DNA of 64,000 nucleotides from Niabella ginsenosidivorans (GTDB lineage Bacteria; Bacteroidota; Bacteroidia; Chitinophagales; Chitinophagaceae), in NCBI RefSeq assembly GCF_001654455.1, contig NZ_CP015772.1, positions 868,001-932,000 on the forward strand, given 5' to 3'. Positions 36,285 through 40,889 of the stretch are shown here, one piece after another. Within the stretch, counting starts at the first letter, position 1; each line of letters starts with the position of its first letter. The notes under the pieces are model-generated. The model saw only the letters and a program-made list of their open reading frames with translations, was not told the origin of the DNA and ran no database searches. The position numbers were made by a program, and so were the translations under genes.

Positions 36285-37139
36285 ATGAAAATATTTTTAA
36301 GTTGGTCAGGTGACCTAAGTCATAAAATTGCCATAGAATTCAGGGAATGGCTACCTTTTGTTATTCAATCAGTAGAACCTTATGTTTCTTCAGAAGACAT
36401 AGATAAGGGTTCTAGGTGGAGTATTGACATTGCTAAAGAGTTAGAAAATTCTTCTTTTGGCATTTTATGTGTGACACCATTAAATATCGACGCGCCTTGG
36501 TTAAATTTTGAAGCGGGCGCATTATCAAAAGCCTTTAGTACTAGCAATGTTTCACCTTTTTTATTTGGTTTGAAACCTTCTGACCTAAAGAAAAGCCCTT
36601 TGCTACAGTTTCAATCAACATTGTATGATAAGAAAGATCTATTAAAACTTGTCTTGAGTATAAACAATGTTCTTGGAAAAGATAAACTTGATGAAGCAAA
36701 GCTGAAAATGACATTTGACGTTTGGTACGAACAGCTAAAATCAAAACTTGACCCAATACTAAAGGAAGCAACAACCAACAAGGCTAATGCTAAAACACAA
36801 GATAAAATTGAAACGAAATCTAATGAAGCTGTTGAAGAAATATTGGAACTAACGAGAGAACAATTTAAGATATTACGAAATCCAGAAGCTATATTACCAC
36901 CACAATATATTTCTTACATATTAAAAGAGTTTAGTCCAAATTTTAAAATTGATACCAAGATTGCGAGGGATTTAGATTTTGGGTTTAAGAATTTGAAAAT
37001 GGCAATTTCAAAATTGCCAGAAGAAGTAATGACAGAAAATCTAGATTTAGACAGAGCACTAATGCGATTAGAAAGAGCAATTATTTACCTAATTGAAAAT
37101 TATAAAAGAAGACCGACACGAAGTTTATTCGAAGAATAA
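36285..37139 (+). CDS. TIR-domain protein, candidate defence NADase
   Basis: The first 140 residues form a TIR domain. It opens with IFLSWSGDLSHKIAIEFREWLPF, then has PYVSSEDIDKGSRWSIDIAKELENSSFGILCVTP and PWLNFEAGALSKA. The Glu in the last motif is the expected catalytic residue of TIR enzymes that cleave NAD+. Residues 165-284 are helical, with a long charged segment, and match no domain I know; they may sense or oligomerise. The gene is visibly AT-rich (strong AAA/TTA usage) compared with the flanks, so it was probably acquired. A 15-base inverted repeat (13 of 15 matching) brackets it. An anti-phage abortive role is inferred from the domain, not shown. Confidence 0.85.
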   Translation: MKIFLSWSGDLSHKIAIEFREWLPFVIQSVEPYVSSEDIDKGSRWSIDIAKELENSSFGILCVTPLNIDAPWLNFEAGALSKAFSTSNVSPFLFGLKPSDLKKSPLLQFQSTLYDKKDLLKLVLSINNVLGKDKLDEAKLKMTFDVWYEQLKSKLDPILKEATTNKANAKTQDKIETKSNEAVEEILELTREQFKILRNPEAILPPQYISYILKEFSPNFKIDTKIARDLDFGFKNLKMAISKLPEEVMTENLDLDRALMRLERAIIYLIENYKRRPTRSLFEE

Positions 37140-37259: not shown

Positions 37260-37802
37260 ATGAGCTTAAACATATTTGAAATATGGGATGGCATAGGACG
37301 TCAGACTCCGTTTGCTGTAAGACGTGACCATTGGGGCGAAGAACAACATGCAGTTGTTGAAAGGATTGAATGTGAAAAGTTACCTTATGGAAAGGCTTTC
37401 GGCTATCCGGTAGTTAACGGACAAAATTCAGATCGTTTCGAGTATGATGAACAATGGCGTAATGAAAAATTAATTCCATGCTGTGGGTGTTACCAATGGA
37501 CATTTATTGAAGATGCCGAAATAAACAAAGACAAAAAATTATCAGACCAGTATCGAAAACGTTTAAATAAGGCTTTGTCTATTTTCTCAAAGTTGACCTT
37601 TGGTAAGCATAAGGGATATACAGTTGAGCAAGCATTTCTTCAAAACAATCAGTATATTGAATGGGCATTACTGAATGTTGAAAAATTCTGTTTAACAAAG
37701 GAGGCGATACATTTATTGGAGGGAATGGTAGCAGGGTTTAAGTTTCCTGATCAAATAAAAAGAATAAATGATCAGAAGTTATTGCTGTGTTTAAAAGAGT
37801 AA
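37260..37802 (+). CDS. Protein with ExoX C-terminal/DUF3820-like domain
   Basis: The 180-residue protein is unrecognised in its first 100 residues, which contain a Cys pair in LIPCCGCYQW. The last 70 residues hold LTFGKHKGYTVEQAFLQNNQYIEWALLN, the short domain found at the end of exonuclease-X-like proteins and in DUF3820 (pattern F-G-K-x-K-G followed by YxxW). This domain usually accompanies nucleic-acid enzymes, but no nuclease core is present here. It follows the TIR gene by 120 bases on the same strand and is also AT-rich, so the two may have arrived together. Function is unknown. Confidence 0.6.
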   Translation: MSLNIFEIWDGIGRQTPFAVRRDHWGEEQHAVVERIECEKLPYGKAFGYPVVNGQNSDRFEYDEQWRNEKLIPCCGCYQWTFIEDAEINKDKKLSDQYRKRLNKALSIFSKLTFGKHKGYTVEQAFLQNNQYIEWALLNVEKFCLTKEAIHLLEGMVAGFKFPDQIKRINDQKLLLCLKE

Positions 37803-37874: not shown

Positions 37875-38114
37875 TCATTCCTCAAACTCAAACTCAAAAT
37901 CCAACAGCTTTTTGGGATGCAATTTCATTGCCAAAGCTAAAGCGACAAGAGTAGCAACGGTAGGGCTTTGTCCTTTTACTTCTATGAGGTAAATTTGCTT
38001 TGCTTCAATGCCAGCCATAGCTCCAAGAGTTTCTCTTGATAGCTTTTTTGCATTCCGCAACTTTTTTAGGTTTTCCCCAAATGCTTTTCCGTATTTTGGA
38101 TTTTTTACATTCAC
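37875..38114 (-). CDS. XRE-family transcriptional regulator
   Basis: The 79-residue protein is essentially one helix-turn-helix of the Cro/CI type. GENLKKLRNAKKLSRETLGAMAGIEAKQIYLIEVKGQSPTVATLVALALAMKL covers the five helices, with recognition helix AKQIYLIE. A Glu-rich end FEFEFEE follows. The gene is transcribed away from the region 38152-38420, where a perfect palindrome overlaps a strong divergent promoter. The simplest reading is that this protein controls that promoter and perhaps its own. It ends close to, and converges on, the ExoX-C-like gene. Confidence 0.85.
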   Translation of the reverse strand: MNVKNPKYGKAFGENLKKLRNAKKLSRETLGAMAGIEAKQIYLIEVKGQSPTVATLVALALAMKLHPKKLLDFEFEFEE

Positions 38115-38151
38115 TATTGTGAAGGTGAGATGACTTTGAAAAAAATATCAC

Positions 38152-38163
38152 GTCAAATTTGAC
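38152..38163. promoter_or_regulatory. Perfect 12-bp palindrome, candidate operator of the XRE regulator
   Basis: GTCAAATTTGAC is self-complementary over all 12 bases. It lies 38 bases upstream of the XRE start, and its right half contains the TTTG (38158-38161) that serves as the -33 element of the plus-strand promoter. A dimeric HTH protein bound here would block that promoter and could affect its own. Confidence 0.6.
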
Positions 38164-38190
38164 TTGTTTTAAAATAATTGTTTATATTTG
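38158..38190 (+). promoter_or_regulatory. Consensus Bacteroidota promoter before the structured leader
   Basis: TTTG (38158-38161), a 21-base spacer and TATATTTG (38183-38190) match TTTG-N21-TAnnTTTG exactly. Transcription would begin near 38197, leaving a leader of about 220 bases before the ATG at 38418. Confidence 0.7.
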
Positions 38191-38196
38191 GTATGA

Positions 38197-38417
38197 ATTA
38201 AAATTATTTTCGCGATACTTCATAAACTCATTTGAAGCATTCGCTTTAAGTCTCGACTTGAAACCTGAGAATTTTCAATAGGAACGAGATGATAAGCAGA
38301 ATGCCCACGACCTGTGCGTGGGCTCTCTTATCCGTTGCTGGGCTTCTCAGGGCCTCTAATGCGGTAAGTTGAGCACCACGCCTTTTTGTGCGGGTGCCCA
38401 CCTAAAACTTTTTTGTT
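38197..38417 (+). ncRNA. Structured leader RNA with four stem-loops, unknown class
   Basis: Four hairpins follow one another between the promoter and the ORF. H0 is GCGA-ta-CTTCA (38212-38222) with TGAAG-cat-TCGC (38233-38244). H1 is CTCG (38252-38255) and TTGAAA (38258-38263) with TTTCAA (38273-38278) and CGAG (38285-38288). H2 is GATAAG (38291-38296) and GCCCACG (38303-38309) with CGTGGGC (38317-38323) and CTTATC (38327-38332). H3 is GCACC-a-CGC (38373-38381) with GCG-GGTGC (38390-38397), 20 bases before the start codon. I do not recognise the class. It could be a cis-regulatory element, a processed small RNA or an RNA partner of the encoded protein. Confidence 0.5.
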
Positions 38418-38918
38418 ATGGACAACGCCGTTGTTACACCCGTACAAAACATCAACACCCCTTTTAATGAGGCACAATGGCTGCAGGTGCTGTTCCTGCT
38501 GGCAGATACGCAAACCTGGCTGCAACAACAGCAGGAGGGCCTTATATGGCAGCTGCCGGTAAAGAACCGTAAGCGCCTGCTGCGCAAAAGCTGGTACCTT
38601 ACCGCTACTGCGCTGGCCCATATTCTGGAGCGCCATTATTATAAGGTGCCGCGCCACCCGCTGGCCGGCAAGTTCACTATTTCCATACCCGCTATTGCAG
38701 CCGCCATAAGGGATGCTTACCAGCAACCACCGCAGCCCCTGCCCGAACCTTCAGGGGAGGATAGCGGCCTGCTGCAACGTGTGTGGGATGCGGGCACGCC
38801 GCTGGGCTATGATACCACCGGCCGCACGGTCAGCGTGCTTACCGTTATAAGTGATGCATCCGGGGAAATTATTACGGCTTTCCCCGGTACGGCGCAAGCG
38901 CAGGACGGCTCGGGGTGA
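38418..38918 (+). CDS. Protein of unknown family behind the structured leader
   Basis: The 166-residue product begins MDNAVVTPVQNINTPFNEAQWLQVLFLLADTQTWL. It then has a basic patch LPVKNRKRLLRKSWYLTATALAHILERHYYKVP, followed by FTISIPAIAAAIRDAYQQPPQPLPEP and a C-terminal segment with GYDTTGRTVSVLTVISDASGEIITAFPG. The end looks like a short beta hairpin of the kind found in nuclease or RNase-toxin folds, but no catalytic set is evident. It has no signal peptide or membrane segment. I do not recognise the family. Codon use is GC-rich, unlike the AT-rich genes just upstream. Its leader and operator make it the likely effector of this small locus. Confidence 0.6.
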   Translation: MDNAVVTPVQNINTPFNEAQWLQVLFLLADTQTWLQQQQEGLIWQLPVKNRKRLLRKSWYLTATALAHILERHYYKVPRHPLAGKFTISIPAIAAAIRDAYQQPPQPLPEPSGEDSGLLQRVWDAGTPLGYDTTGRTVSVLTVISDASGEIITAFPGTAQAQDGSG

Positions 38919-39214: not shown

Positions 39215-39350
39215 GAATCAATTTTTCTGATCCTTTTTGTTTGCCCAAAAAGGATCGCAAAAAGGGCCCCCGGAATCGGTTACGGCACGATTCCGGGAAG
39301 GAATATCTATCAGCTTCAGTGCATAGTAGTAGGCCCGCCAACTGGCGGAC
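39215..39350 (-). repeat. Family B multi-hairpin element, copy 3 (inverted)
   Basis: Read on the minus strand the stems occur in the same order as copies 1 and 2. On the plus strand they are GATCCTTTTTG (39229-39239) with CAAAAAGGATC (39246-39256), CCGGAATCG (39270-39278) with CGATTCCGG (39288-39296), and GCCCGCC (39333-39339) with GGCGGAC (39344-39350, one mismatch). It abuts the family A copy, in opposite orientation. Confidence 0.7.
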
Positions 39351-39524: not shown

Positions 39525-40133
39525 ATGAAAAACAAAACCCCAAAAGACCCGTTTGAAACCCGGTGCTGGAGCTGCGAAAGCATTACTGATCCTTACCAGG
39601 TTTTTGCCGCCTGCTTTTTTTATGCGCCCATCGGTGCCTTTAGAAAAACCATCCGGCAGGTGCTGCTATCCGCCGCCAGCAGCAAAGTGTACCATAAGGA
39701 AGACCCTGCCGCTGCATTGGGTATGTTTAAGGCCGTTACTTCTGTACTGCTTGCCGCGCACCAATTATACCGGCAAAAGAAAACCAGCGGGCTGCAAATA
39801 ACACCGGAGCAGTTTATGGACAGGCGGCTGTATGCCCGCTCCAATGCCCCCTGTGCGGAGTGGGATTACCTGCCCAAAGCCTTAACAGCAAAGGAGTATC
39901 AGAATCCTTATGCCGTGTTCCGGCGTTTTTTTAAGGATCAGCCGGTTGAAAAGTGGCGGCAGCAGGTGGAGCAGGCATTGGAGTATGCGCTGGCCGTTGA
40001 GGCGGATGATAGCGGCCCGGGTCTGCTGCGTCTGTATATTTACCTGGTAAAGCTGGTGGAAGCCGCCCATTTGATTGATGTGCGGGAGGTGCTGCACATT
40101 GGCGGGCATTTAAAGCCGGCTCAATCGATGTAG
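39525..40133 (+). CDS. Protein of unknown family, second gene of the locus
   Basis: The 202-residue protein starts MKNKTPKDPFETRCWSCESITDPYQVFAACFFYAPIGAFRKTIRQVL. It is all-helical by appearance: helices around KMFKAVTSVLLAAHQLYRQKK-like residues 65-85, then RRFFKDQPVEKWRQQVEQALEYALAVE (about 135-160) and LRLYIYLVKLVEAAHLIDVREVLH. There is no signal peptide. The conserved-looking RCWSCE could bind metal. No family is recognised. It shares strand and base composition with the unknown gene at 38418 but is 606 bases away behind two repeats, so a functional link is only a guess. Tandem repeats follow its stop. Confidence 0.6.
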   Translation: MKNKTPKDPFETRCWSCESITDPYQVFAACFFYAPIGAFRKTIRQVLLSAASSKVYHKEDPAAALGMFKAVTSVLLAAHQLYRQKKTSGLQITPEQFMDRRLYARSNAPCAEWDYLPKALTAKEYQNPYAVFRRFFKDQPVEKWRQQVEQALEYALAVEADDSGPGLLRLYIYLVKLVEAAHLIDVREVLHIGGHLKPAQSM

Positions 40134-40258
40134 CAATGACAGACCTTCCTGTCGTCATTCTGAGCGTATGCGTCAACCGGCAAAGGAGCCGAGGGATCTT
40201 CTTAATTGAGGAGATGCCTCGGCTGCGCTCGGCATGACGTGAGTGTAATCATTGTTCC

Positions 40259-40569
40259 GTCACCCTGCGAAATGAAATGAAGCCGAAGGGTCTCTCAATT
40301 ATCGGAGAGTTCGTTATTACAGGGATGCCTCGGCTGCGCTCGGCATGACGTGAGTGTAATCGTCCGTCACCCTGAATGGAATGAAGCCGAAGGGTCTCAC
40401 GGATGTCGGAGAGCCCGTTATCACAGGGATGCTTCGGCTTCGCTCAGCATGACGCGAGTGTAATCGTCCGTCACCCTGACCGAAGCGCAGCGGAGCGGAA
40501 GGGTCTCTCAATTATCGGAGAGTTTGTTATTACAGGGATGCTTCGGCTTCGCATGACGTGAGTATAATT
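40259..40569 (+). repeat. Tandem array of three ~104-bp family C units
   Basis: Units begin near 40259, 40362 and 40466. Each reads CGTCACCCTGA, a variable middle, GAAGGGTCTC, TCGGAGAG, GTTATYACAGGGATGC, CTCGGC/TTCGGC and GCATGACG with GAGTGTAAT. A partial unit precedes them (40140-40258). The gap 40134-40571 holds nothing else. Another single fragment is at 40930-40980. Confidence 0.7.
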
Positions 40570-40571
40570 GC

Positions 40572-40889
40572 TCAGTATAAAAGACTGTATATCTCCTTAG
40601 AAATCTCCTCATTAAAAACCTTCCATTGTGGATTTTTTCGTGCAATCAATTGCTCTTTCTTTTTTCTGATCCATCCCTTCAATTGTTTTTCTCTTTCTAT
40701 TGCCGAATTAATCGTATTGAACCACTCATAATAGATCAGTAATGTTGCATTGTATTGATCCGTAAAGCTACCGGGTGTTTCGTGCTGCTCGTGTTCCCAT
40801 AACCTCGACCGAAGATTGGACGTGACGCCGATATAGAGGACCGTTCTTAGTTTGTTTGTTAGTATGTATATGAAGCCTCCTTTTTGCAT
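40572..40889 (-). CDS. GIY-YIG nuclease family protein (UPF0213-like)
   Basis: The 105-residue protein is a stand-alone GIY-YIG domain: FIYILTNKLRTVLYIGVTSNLRSRLWEHE supplies the two motif tyrosines and the conserved Arg, and YYEWFNTINSAIEREKQLKGWIRKKKEQLI supplies the Glu and basic tail. Such small proteins are frequent and highly multiplied in Bacteroidota; their DNA target is unknown. The gene lies between two family C repeat blocks, which fits a lifestyle linked to repeats or mobile DNA, though this is only suggestive. Confidence 0.9.
   Translation of the reverse strand: MQKGGFIYILTNKLRTVLYIGVTSNLRSRLWEHEQHETPGSFTDQYNATLLIYYEWFNTINSAIEREKQLKGWIRKKKEQLIARKNPQWKVFNEEISKEIYSLLY

Follow-up and report, generated by a model that had tools for sequence, protein, structure and literature searches.

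A conserved leader RNA, probably a transcription attenuator, in a portable HTH-operator-promoter cassette of Bacteroidota

The locus and its two downstream genes

The window, the whole 64,000-nucleotide stretch that was analysed (contig NZ_CP015772.1 of Niabella ginsenosidivorans, positions 868,001 to 932,000), contains a small regulator gene, a divergent promoter, a long leader and two genes downstream of it. The features are as follows, in window coordinates:

37875-38114, minus strand: small divergent XRE/HTH regulator, 79 aa, GTG start
38152-38163, no strand: palindrome GTCAAATTTGAC, putative operator overlapping the -33 element
38158-38190, plus strand: Bacteroidetes-type promoter TTTG-N21-TATATTTG
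38197-38387, plus strand: candidate attenuator RNA, with a presumed start about 7 nt after the -7 element and its end at a T-run
38239-38302, plus strand: 5' rod, in which ATTCGCTT (38239-38246) and GTCTCG (38250-38255) face CGAGAT (38285-38290) and AAGCAGAAT (38294-38302)
38256-38361, plus strand: strands of helix A (38256-38261 with 38355-38361) and of outer helix C, not fully paired here
38260-38276, plus strand: hairpin H1, whose loop CCTGAGAA (38264-38271) pairs with the H2 loop
38303-38323, plus strand: hairpin D (GCCCACG / CGTGGGC), which competes with the 5' arm of the terminator
38316-38387, plus strand: predicted intrinsic terminator, arms 38316-38335 and 38362-38382, then TTTTT at 38383-38387; MFE -33.9 kcal/mol
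38340-38356, plus strand: hairpin H2, whose loop TTCTCAGG (38344-38351) is the kissing partner of H1
38373-38397, plus strand: hairpin E (GCACC / GGTGC), alternative partner of the 3' arm of the terminator, found by eye
38418-38918, plus strand: ORF1, 166 aa, the client gene, a probable BECR/EndoU-like RNase
39525-40133, plus strand: ORF2, 202 aa, two tandem copies of a helical domain of about 70 aa, a recurring companion

The regulator has an HTH_3 match that exceeds the Pfam cutoff (E 4.1e-7). As the first-pass annotation of this DNA had described, its gene faces away from a 12-bp palindrome, and an exact TTTG-N21-TATATTTG promoter can be seen in the sequence: TTTG (38158-38161) lies inside the right part of the palindrome, and a spacing of 21 separates it from TATATTTG at 38183-38190. 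A scan for sigma-70 promoters gave a chance-level match, which is expected if the promoter is of the Bacteroidetes type. Beyond the regulator gene lie a 284-aa protein (36285-37139), perhaps involved in defence or signalling, whose TIR_2 match (E 1.6e-5) stays below cutoff, and a 180-aa protein (37260-37802) with an ExoX-like C-terminal domain (E 1.2e-8).

ORF1 had been called an ORF of no known family, and the window protein indeed gave no Pfam match up to E 1. Matches in NCBIfam were unconvincing (best E 0.017), and a PDB sequence search and PADLOC returned nothing. The gene was found in 15 of the 59 genomes searched, own genome included (14 of the 17 of the genus, 1 of the 42 others), and all named relatives sharing at least 77% identity belong to Niabella (Chitinophagaceae). 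The own genome, a single contig of 5.63 Mb, has six matching rows at five places. No EndoU/BECR profile matched the window protein, and a match above the profile cutoff is unlikely for any other ORF1 member: among 24 aligned members EndoU_bacteria matched 5 weakly (best E 0.0015) and PBECR3 one (E 0.14). An AlphaFold2 model (pLDDT 78, pTM 0.59) was compared with known structures using Foldseek, which gave no match at E 0.001 or better; the best were two chains of 5e3e, the CdiA-CT of Yersinia kristensenii (E 3.3e-3 and 3.8e-3), with a probability of 0.96 but a TM-score to the query of 0.28 and an rmsd of 8.5. Lower in the list (E 0.23 to 0.84) stand colicin D, two further CDI toxins and a ribonuclease from E. 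coli that we take to be colicin E5, and the same list also holds unrelated entries, namely ketosteroid isomerases and an orange carotenoid protein. A review (PMC9086364) puts 5e3e nearest RNase A, with some BECR likeness, and notes that, for most BECR CdiA-CT toxins of known structure, it was the structure alone that revealed the family. Set against EndoU/BECR and RNase A-like toxin domains (CdiA-CT, colicins E5 and D), the likeness of ORF1 consists of the weak EndoU_bacteria matches and the 5e3e match, with the other CDI toxins and the colicins further down; ORF1 is thus a probable BECR/EndoU-like, toxin-like RNase by inference and not by family membership. A phage or plasmid element was considered and rejected: ORF1 had no match in phages or plasmids, and the leader of a related locus (L048) had none in phages. 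At L070 and L077 (MAG loci with no RNA there), a small ORF, possibly a partner protein, ends just before or at the start of ORF1.

For ORF2, the internal duplication was detected with hhalign (probability 97%, P 2.5e-11), and the all-alpha structural model (pLDDT 85) matched nothing among PDB folds better than E 0.57. The window protein matched only DUF6435, below cutoff (E 0.04; best of the other members E 0.0047), and 48 homologous ORFs were kept, the window's own included. Two adjoining repeats of about 105 nt, 82% identical, occupy 40199-40413, and similar stretches occur near other loci; about 117 nt at 39224-39340 are 82% identical to a stretch that adjoins a further ORF1 copy in this genome (L005, 375-491). 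A 105-aa ORF on the minus strand at 40572-40889 presumably resembles a GIY-YIG endonuclease, judging from a motif.

Covariation and competing folds of the leader RNA

We aligned 28 distinct homologous leaders and compared how well the helix strands matched within loci and between loci, using 20000 permutations. Three helices stood at 0/20000: helix A (14 distinct pairs, mean run 5.79 vs 3.23 for non-cognate strands), the loop-loop helix (12 distinct pairs, 7.25 vs 4.24) and outer helix C (20 distinct pairs, 6.45 vs 4.15). The corresponding counts were 190/20000 for a pseudoknot, P, and 77/20000 for the H2 stem, while the H1 stem, which hardly varies, had no covariation support (8107/20000). 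The kissing loops occur, among other forms, as ACTGGTA/TACCAGT, CCTGAGAA/TTCTCAGG and CGTCGGA/TCCGACG, and, by eye, as CGTAGGA/TCCTACG in divergent copies. The first-pass annotation had proposed a structured leader of about 220 nt between promoter and ORF and had named covariation in aligned leaders as a check; the leader is present and its covariation is strong, in helices A, outer C and the kissing helix above all. The four successive stem-loops of that annotation are real as stems, but their layout has to be redrawn as two long rods that are connected by co-varying helices and a loop-loop helix. On this comparison of sequences, the leader is a real structured RNA with compensatory changes, in which the rods, helices A and C and the kissing hairpins would together form a four-way junction.

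A search model, R1, was built on 22 of the 28 leaders, in which 41 pairs were 97.1% paired; the window copy was one of the six leaders left out, and the loop-loop helix and P were not part of the model. R1 matched the window at 38234-38378 with 145 bits (E 7.1e-28) and gave 97 matches when 98 loci were searched. The resulting alignment (A4, 96 distinct rows) consists of related rows, 42 of its 98 sources having been fetched because of ORF1, and is biased toward the model's nested helices, not toward the loop-loop helix or P. In it, the arrangement of helices A, C and D, with E, which we call fold II, was paired in 96.9% of cells with double changes in 35 of its 39 pairs, and its covariation was 0.481, against 0.175 for shuffled and at most 0.073 for slid alignments. 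The loop-loop helix alone, although outside the search model, was 95.9% paired with many double changes, and in 38 further matches from other families it was paired in 221 of 226 cells. Two AT-rich rows of L163 (22-23 bits) and one duplicate core were left out before the counts over 94 loci given below; the L163 rows stay in the 96-row covariation counts of both folds, and the duplicate core stays in the ORF2-domain count (127 loci) and in the fold energies of whole leaders and of 95 transcripts.

RNAalifold, applied to the 28 leaders, picked a different fold, with the 5' rod and a 3' rod ending in CACGCC right before the T-run. The second rod is the terminator, whose T-run at 38383-38387 stands 30 nt before the ATG of ORF1. 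A T-rich tract lies no more than 26 nt after the RNA at 91 of 94 loci (vs 10 of 94 at +60) and after 37 of the 38 RNA matches from other families (vs 12 in the control), and a helix of at least 6 pairs ends at the T-run at 88 of 94 loci (vs 24 in shuffled sequences). Divergent copies, inspected by eye, rebuild the terminator with other sequences (AGTGCGA..TCGCACT in L050, AAACGTGGG..CCCACGTTT in L086). A simple terminator scan of the leader listed hairpin D alone; it missed the terminator because its loop limit is 8. We conclude that the RNA ends in a predicted intrinsic terminator, stem and T-run, ahead of the gene.

With the kissing helix, the rods fold was 91.8% paired in the wide alignment, with double changes in 24 of 31 pairs and a covariation of 0.321 (0.165 shuffled). 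Twelve of these 31 pairs belong to the kissing helix and P; of the 19 pairs in the rods themselves, 13 show double changes, several of them seen in only one to three sequences. The terminator strands also have conserved alternative partners, hairpin D and inner helix C, part of the support for this alternative pairing coming from nearly invariant bases. Because hairpins D and E and inner helix C use terminator strands, termination and fold II are predicted to be mutually exclusive.

Computed energies, which are crude in that they leave out the loop-loop pairs and take the longest contiguous helix as the terminator arm, favoured fold II in 86 of 94 transcripts ending at the T-run (median 6.5 kcal/mol), and forcing A, C and D over the leader plus 40 nt downstream cost a median of 0.1 kcal/mol. 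The long-range terminator helix was held in the lowest-energy fold of only 15 of 95 T-run-ended transcripts. Among the copies of the own genome, the two folds lie close in energy, the difference terminator minus fold II being between 0.0 and 3.4 kcal/mol for six of the seven and 17.6 for one. Since the energies favour fold II, they do not imply termination as the default; switching between terminator and fold II is plausible. Attenuation through a leader peptide was also considered and rejected: by eye, the ATG of GAGATGATAAG is absent in many relatives, and the length of helix A changes in steps other than 3.

The window copy itself appears damaged. Helix A and outer helix C are paired in most relatives, unlike here, where ACTTGA with TCTAATG (helix A) gives a run of 3 and AGGAACG with CGTTGCT (outer C) a run of 4; the loop-loop helix and the terminator are intact. 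Locus L014 resembles the window copy (helix A 4, outer C 5), and helix A is broken (3) in L058. Fold II costs 5.4 kcal/mol over the whole window leader, the constrained comparison puts fold II 1.5 kcal/mol better than the terminator, and the unconstrained fold of 38198-38390 consists of the two rods with the terminator. With both helices broken, the window copy may regulate poorly or be decaying. Its 3' half resembles that of L043, which makes recombination between paralogues likely.

Regulators, promoters and clients of the related RNAs

The sequences upstream of the related RNAs repeat the layout seen in the window. TAnnTTTG precedes 65 of 94 related RNAs (shuffled mean 9.8) and starts 28-32 nt before the conserved RNA core in 40 of those 65; the strict form TTTG-N18..23-TAnnTTTG occurs at only 11 of 94 loci (shuffled mean 0.4). 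Taken alone, the 12-bp palindrome of the window is weak (score 6.0 vs a shuffled mean of 4.84). A palindrome score of at least 7 was found at 24 of 94 related loci and in 5.1% of shuffles and is thus five times commoner than by chance, and L030, whose XRE protein is similar to that of the window, has the 20-bp palindrome TCACGTCAAATTTGACGTGA in the corresponding region. Loci with the same HTH type and differing clients have palindromes in common: GCGGACACCTGTCCGC occurs in L005 and L021, ahead of ORF1, and in L132, ahead of ORF2, and GACGTATTATAATACGTC in L164, L166 and L169, of the TlpA/SusC type, with a close variant in L015, an ORF1 locus.

A divergent small HTH gene is usual beside the RNA, and its type varies by locus. 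Among the divergent ORFs scanned, HTH_3 was found in 54 of 89 (94 loci) and 15 of 27 (32 further loci), and HTH_26 in 53 of 89 and 10 of 27, respectively; these counts are probably low, as the ORF scanned was the longest near the RNA and not always the HTH gene. The arrangement is that of XRE/Cro-CI regulators divergent from the genes they control, with a small HTH gene and a palindrome over the promoter; it is unlike them in that the HTH type changes between loci while the RNA stays. By eye, the response-regulator-like loci L134, L139, L140, L141, L147, L175, L176 and L212 seem to have no divergent HTH gene. At L129 and L155, the upstream divergent protein has a motif that suggests HsdM of type I restriction.

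The first-pass annotation had suggested an RNA-partnered module, and one peculiar to ORF1 is not supported. The own genome has 7 RNA matches, 5 before ORF1 copies and 2 elsewhere. Across 17 same-genus genomes, 34 of 74 RNA matches lie directly before ORF1, 3 lie 1.6-1.9 kb from it and 37 are not near it, and 34 of 42 ORF1 rows have the RNA directly upstream. This count uses the 74 RNA rows of G000-G016 and 42 of 46 ORF1 rows, omitting the fragments G000 C1:5258722, G003 C1:1199890 and G003 C1:1482926 and a G018 row. The ORF1 profile matched at none of 37 RNA loci from other families; of the 56 loci L128-L183, L144 and L146 alone gave a match. Conversely, homologues of ORF1 that lack the leader, which the same annotation had named as counterevidence, do exist: the RNA model matched at 34 of 59 named ORF1 loci, about 2 kb away at 2 of these, and not at the other 25, of which L056 and L092 are without upstream sequence. 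The RNA without ORF1 and ORF1 without the RNA argue that the RNA is a general leader element, of which ORF1 is one of several clients. The proposed recurrence of XRE gene, palindrome, promoter, RNA and ORF as one unit is supported.

At L041, L045 and L046, three of the 25 ORF1 loci without a model match, inspection by eye shows a different leader that has a stem and T-run. L041 and L045 coincide with L022 and L023; the leader preceding ORF1 at L022, L023 and L046, which R1 misses, also has long-range complementarity and possibly represents a second RNA class.

The clients besides ORF1 include TlpA/SusC receptors, ECF sigma factors, response regulators and ORF2-like genes. Among 52 first downstream ORFs we found Redoxin (11), AhpC-TSA (9), Response_reg (5), sigma-70 region 4 (5), HEPN (3), TonB Plug (2) and HisKA (2), families that overlap, many of the ORFs being without a match; among 30 first downstream ORFs from other families, TonB Plug was found in 13, Response_reg in 2 and sigma-70 in 2. 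Of the 42 RNA rows from other families, 32 entered the client, HTH and ORF2-domain counts and four were never fetched; L207-L209, L215, L219 and L220 are outside those counts and inside the terminator, kissing-helix and ORF1-profile counts for other families. The suggestion that the gene at 39525 may belong to the module gains from its recurrence, the ORF2 domain following 59 of 127 RNA loci. ORF2 often comes after ORF1, stands ahead of it in L081, and follows the RNA in the absence of ORF1 in L130 (twice), L132, L191 and L197. Ahead of the TlpA/SusC-type operons at L136, L167, L171, L172 and L177, a second hairpin (ACTCATCC..GGATGAG or like) comes after the terminator, as does the start of a possible short ORF, MSAKTSY...

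These counts bear on two other readings of the locus. Were the RNA the antitoxin of the RNase ORF1, with the terminator setting their ratio, the system would resemble type III toxin-antitoxin systems (ToxIN, CptIN, TenpIN): a promoter, a pseudoknotted RNA, a terminator and an RNase-like gene follow one another in the order described for these systems (PMC5086642), and ORF1 leans to nuclease folds. Yet the RNA has no tandem repeats and is not tied to a toxin-like gene; it is found away from ORF1 as often as beside it, ORF1 occurs without it, and its other copies serve receptors, sigma factors and regulators. In a comparison by Pfam only, the ORF1 members listed showed no ToxN/CptN/TenpN-type match. 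We therefore set aside ORF1 as the toxin of such a pair as very improbable, and the locus does not fit type III systems as PMC5086642 defines them.

A free-standing small RNA acting in trans, with a gene ending at the terminator and downstream genes reached by leak-through only, would account for the terminator-like end, the very high structural conservation and the two own-genome copies that precede unrelated operons. This is nevertheless unlikely: recurring client families sit soon after the RNA, 3' of it and on the same strand, a location typical of cis-regulation, and the terminator arms have conserved alternative partners.

Proposed mode of action, novelty and distribution

We favour, with a probability of roughly 70%, the reading of the window leader as a copy of a cis-acting transcription-attenuator RNA of Bacteroidota, carried in a portable cassette of HTH gene, operator, promoter and RNA. 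As long as fold II, with hairpin E, is held, the terminator would be blocked and RNA polymerase would read into the client operon; once the rods form, transcription would stop near 38387 and leave an RNA of about 190 nt. The divergent XRE protein would bind the palindrome over the -33 element and set initiation, providing a second lock. The cassette would be portable in that different HTH types and clients are joined to the same RNA, the client here being the probable toxin-like RNase gene ORF1, together with ORF2.

With known attenuating leaders and riboswitches, the RNA shares its position as a 5' leader, conserved long-range contacts, competing terminator helices and diverse client operons; it differs in having no Rfam 15 match at cutoff, in its varying HTH neighbours and in its multiple copies. 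A strict ligand-binding riboswitch, in which the kissing loops and the junction form a small-molecule pocket that selects between terminator and antiterminator, would be a special case of the attenuator. The kissing hairpins, the conserved bases, the overlap with the terminator and the matches in several families of the phylum all fit such a switch, but no metabolite is obviously common to the clients and most copies adjoin an HTH gene, which leaves this special case doubtful. Somewhat better placed, and still tentative, is a broader proposal that extends the attenuator reading: a riboswitch-like class, so far undescribed, in several Bacteroidota families, whose kissing-loop-locked junction senses a signal and decides termination, and which forms a portable double lock with exchangeable HTH repressors. 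If true, receptor, sigma-factor, two-component and RNase operons have all come under this double lock, with several copies in many a genome.

To our knowledge, few regulatory leader RNAs have been described in Bacteroidota. None of the 4227 families of Rfam 15 matched at the gathering cutoff anywhere in the window; the leader gave three snoRNA/miRNA matches far below the cutoffs at E up to 10, and three other RNA loci gave none at E up to 1. In our searches of open-access PMC papers and Rfam 15, we found no description of the leader RNA. PMC2864571, which lists Bacteroidetes motifs, makes no mention of 'Chitinophaga'. The RNA is apparently an undescribed Bacteroidota family, as judged against the published structures in Rfam. 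It would open a way to understand the control of outer-membrane receptors, ECF sigma factors and toxin-like genes in Bacteroidota, and it suggests how a single regulatory cassette can serve again with other repressors and other clients.

Model matches were found in 25 of 59 relatives, own genome included (E 0.1; G033 was dropped as weak), in 67 of 195 genomes and 44 of 101 genera of the same family (E 0.001), and in 31 of 296 genomes and 15 of 139 genera of the same phylum. A Rhizosphaericola mali plasmid carries a relative of the L193 RNA, with no feature annotated under it. A single genome holds up to 10 RNA matches.
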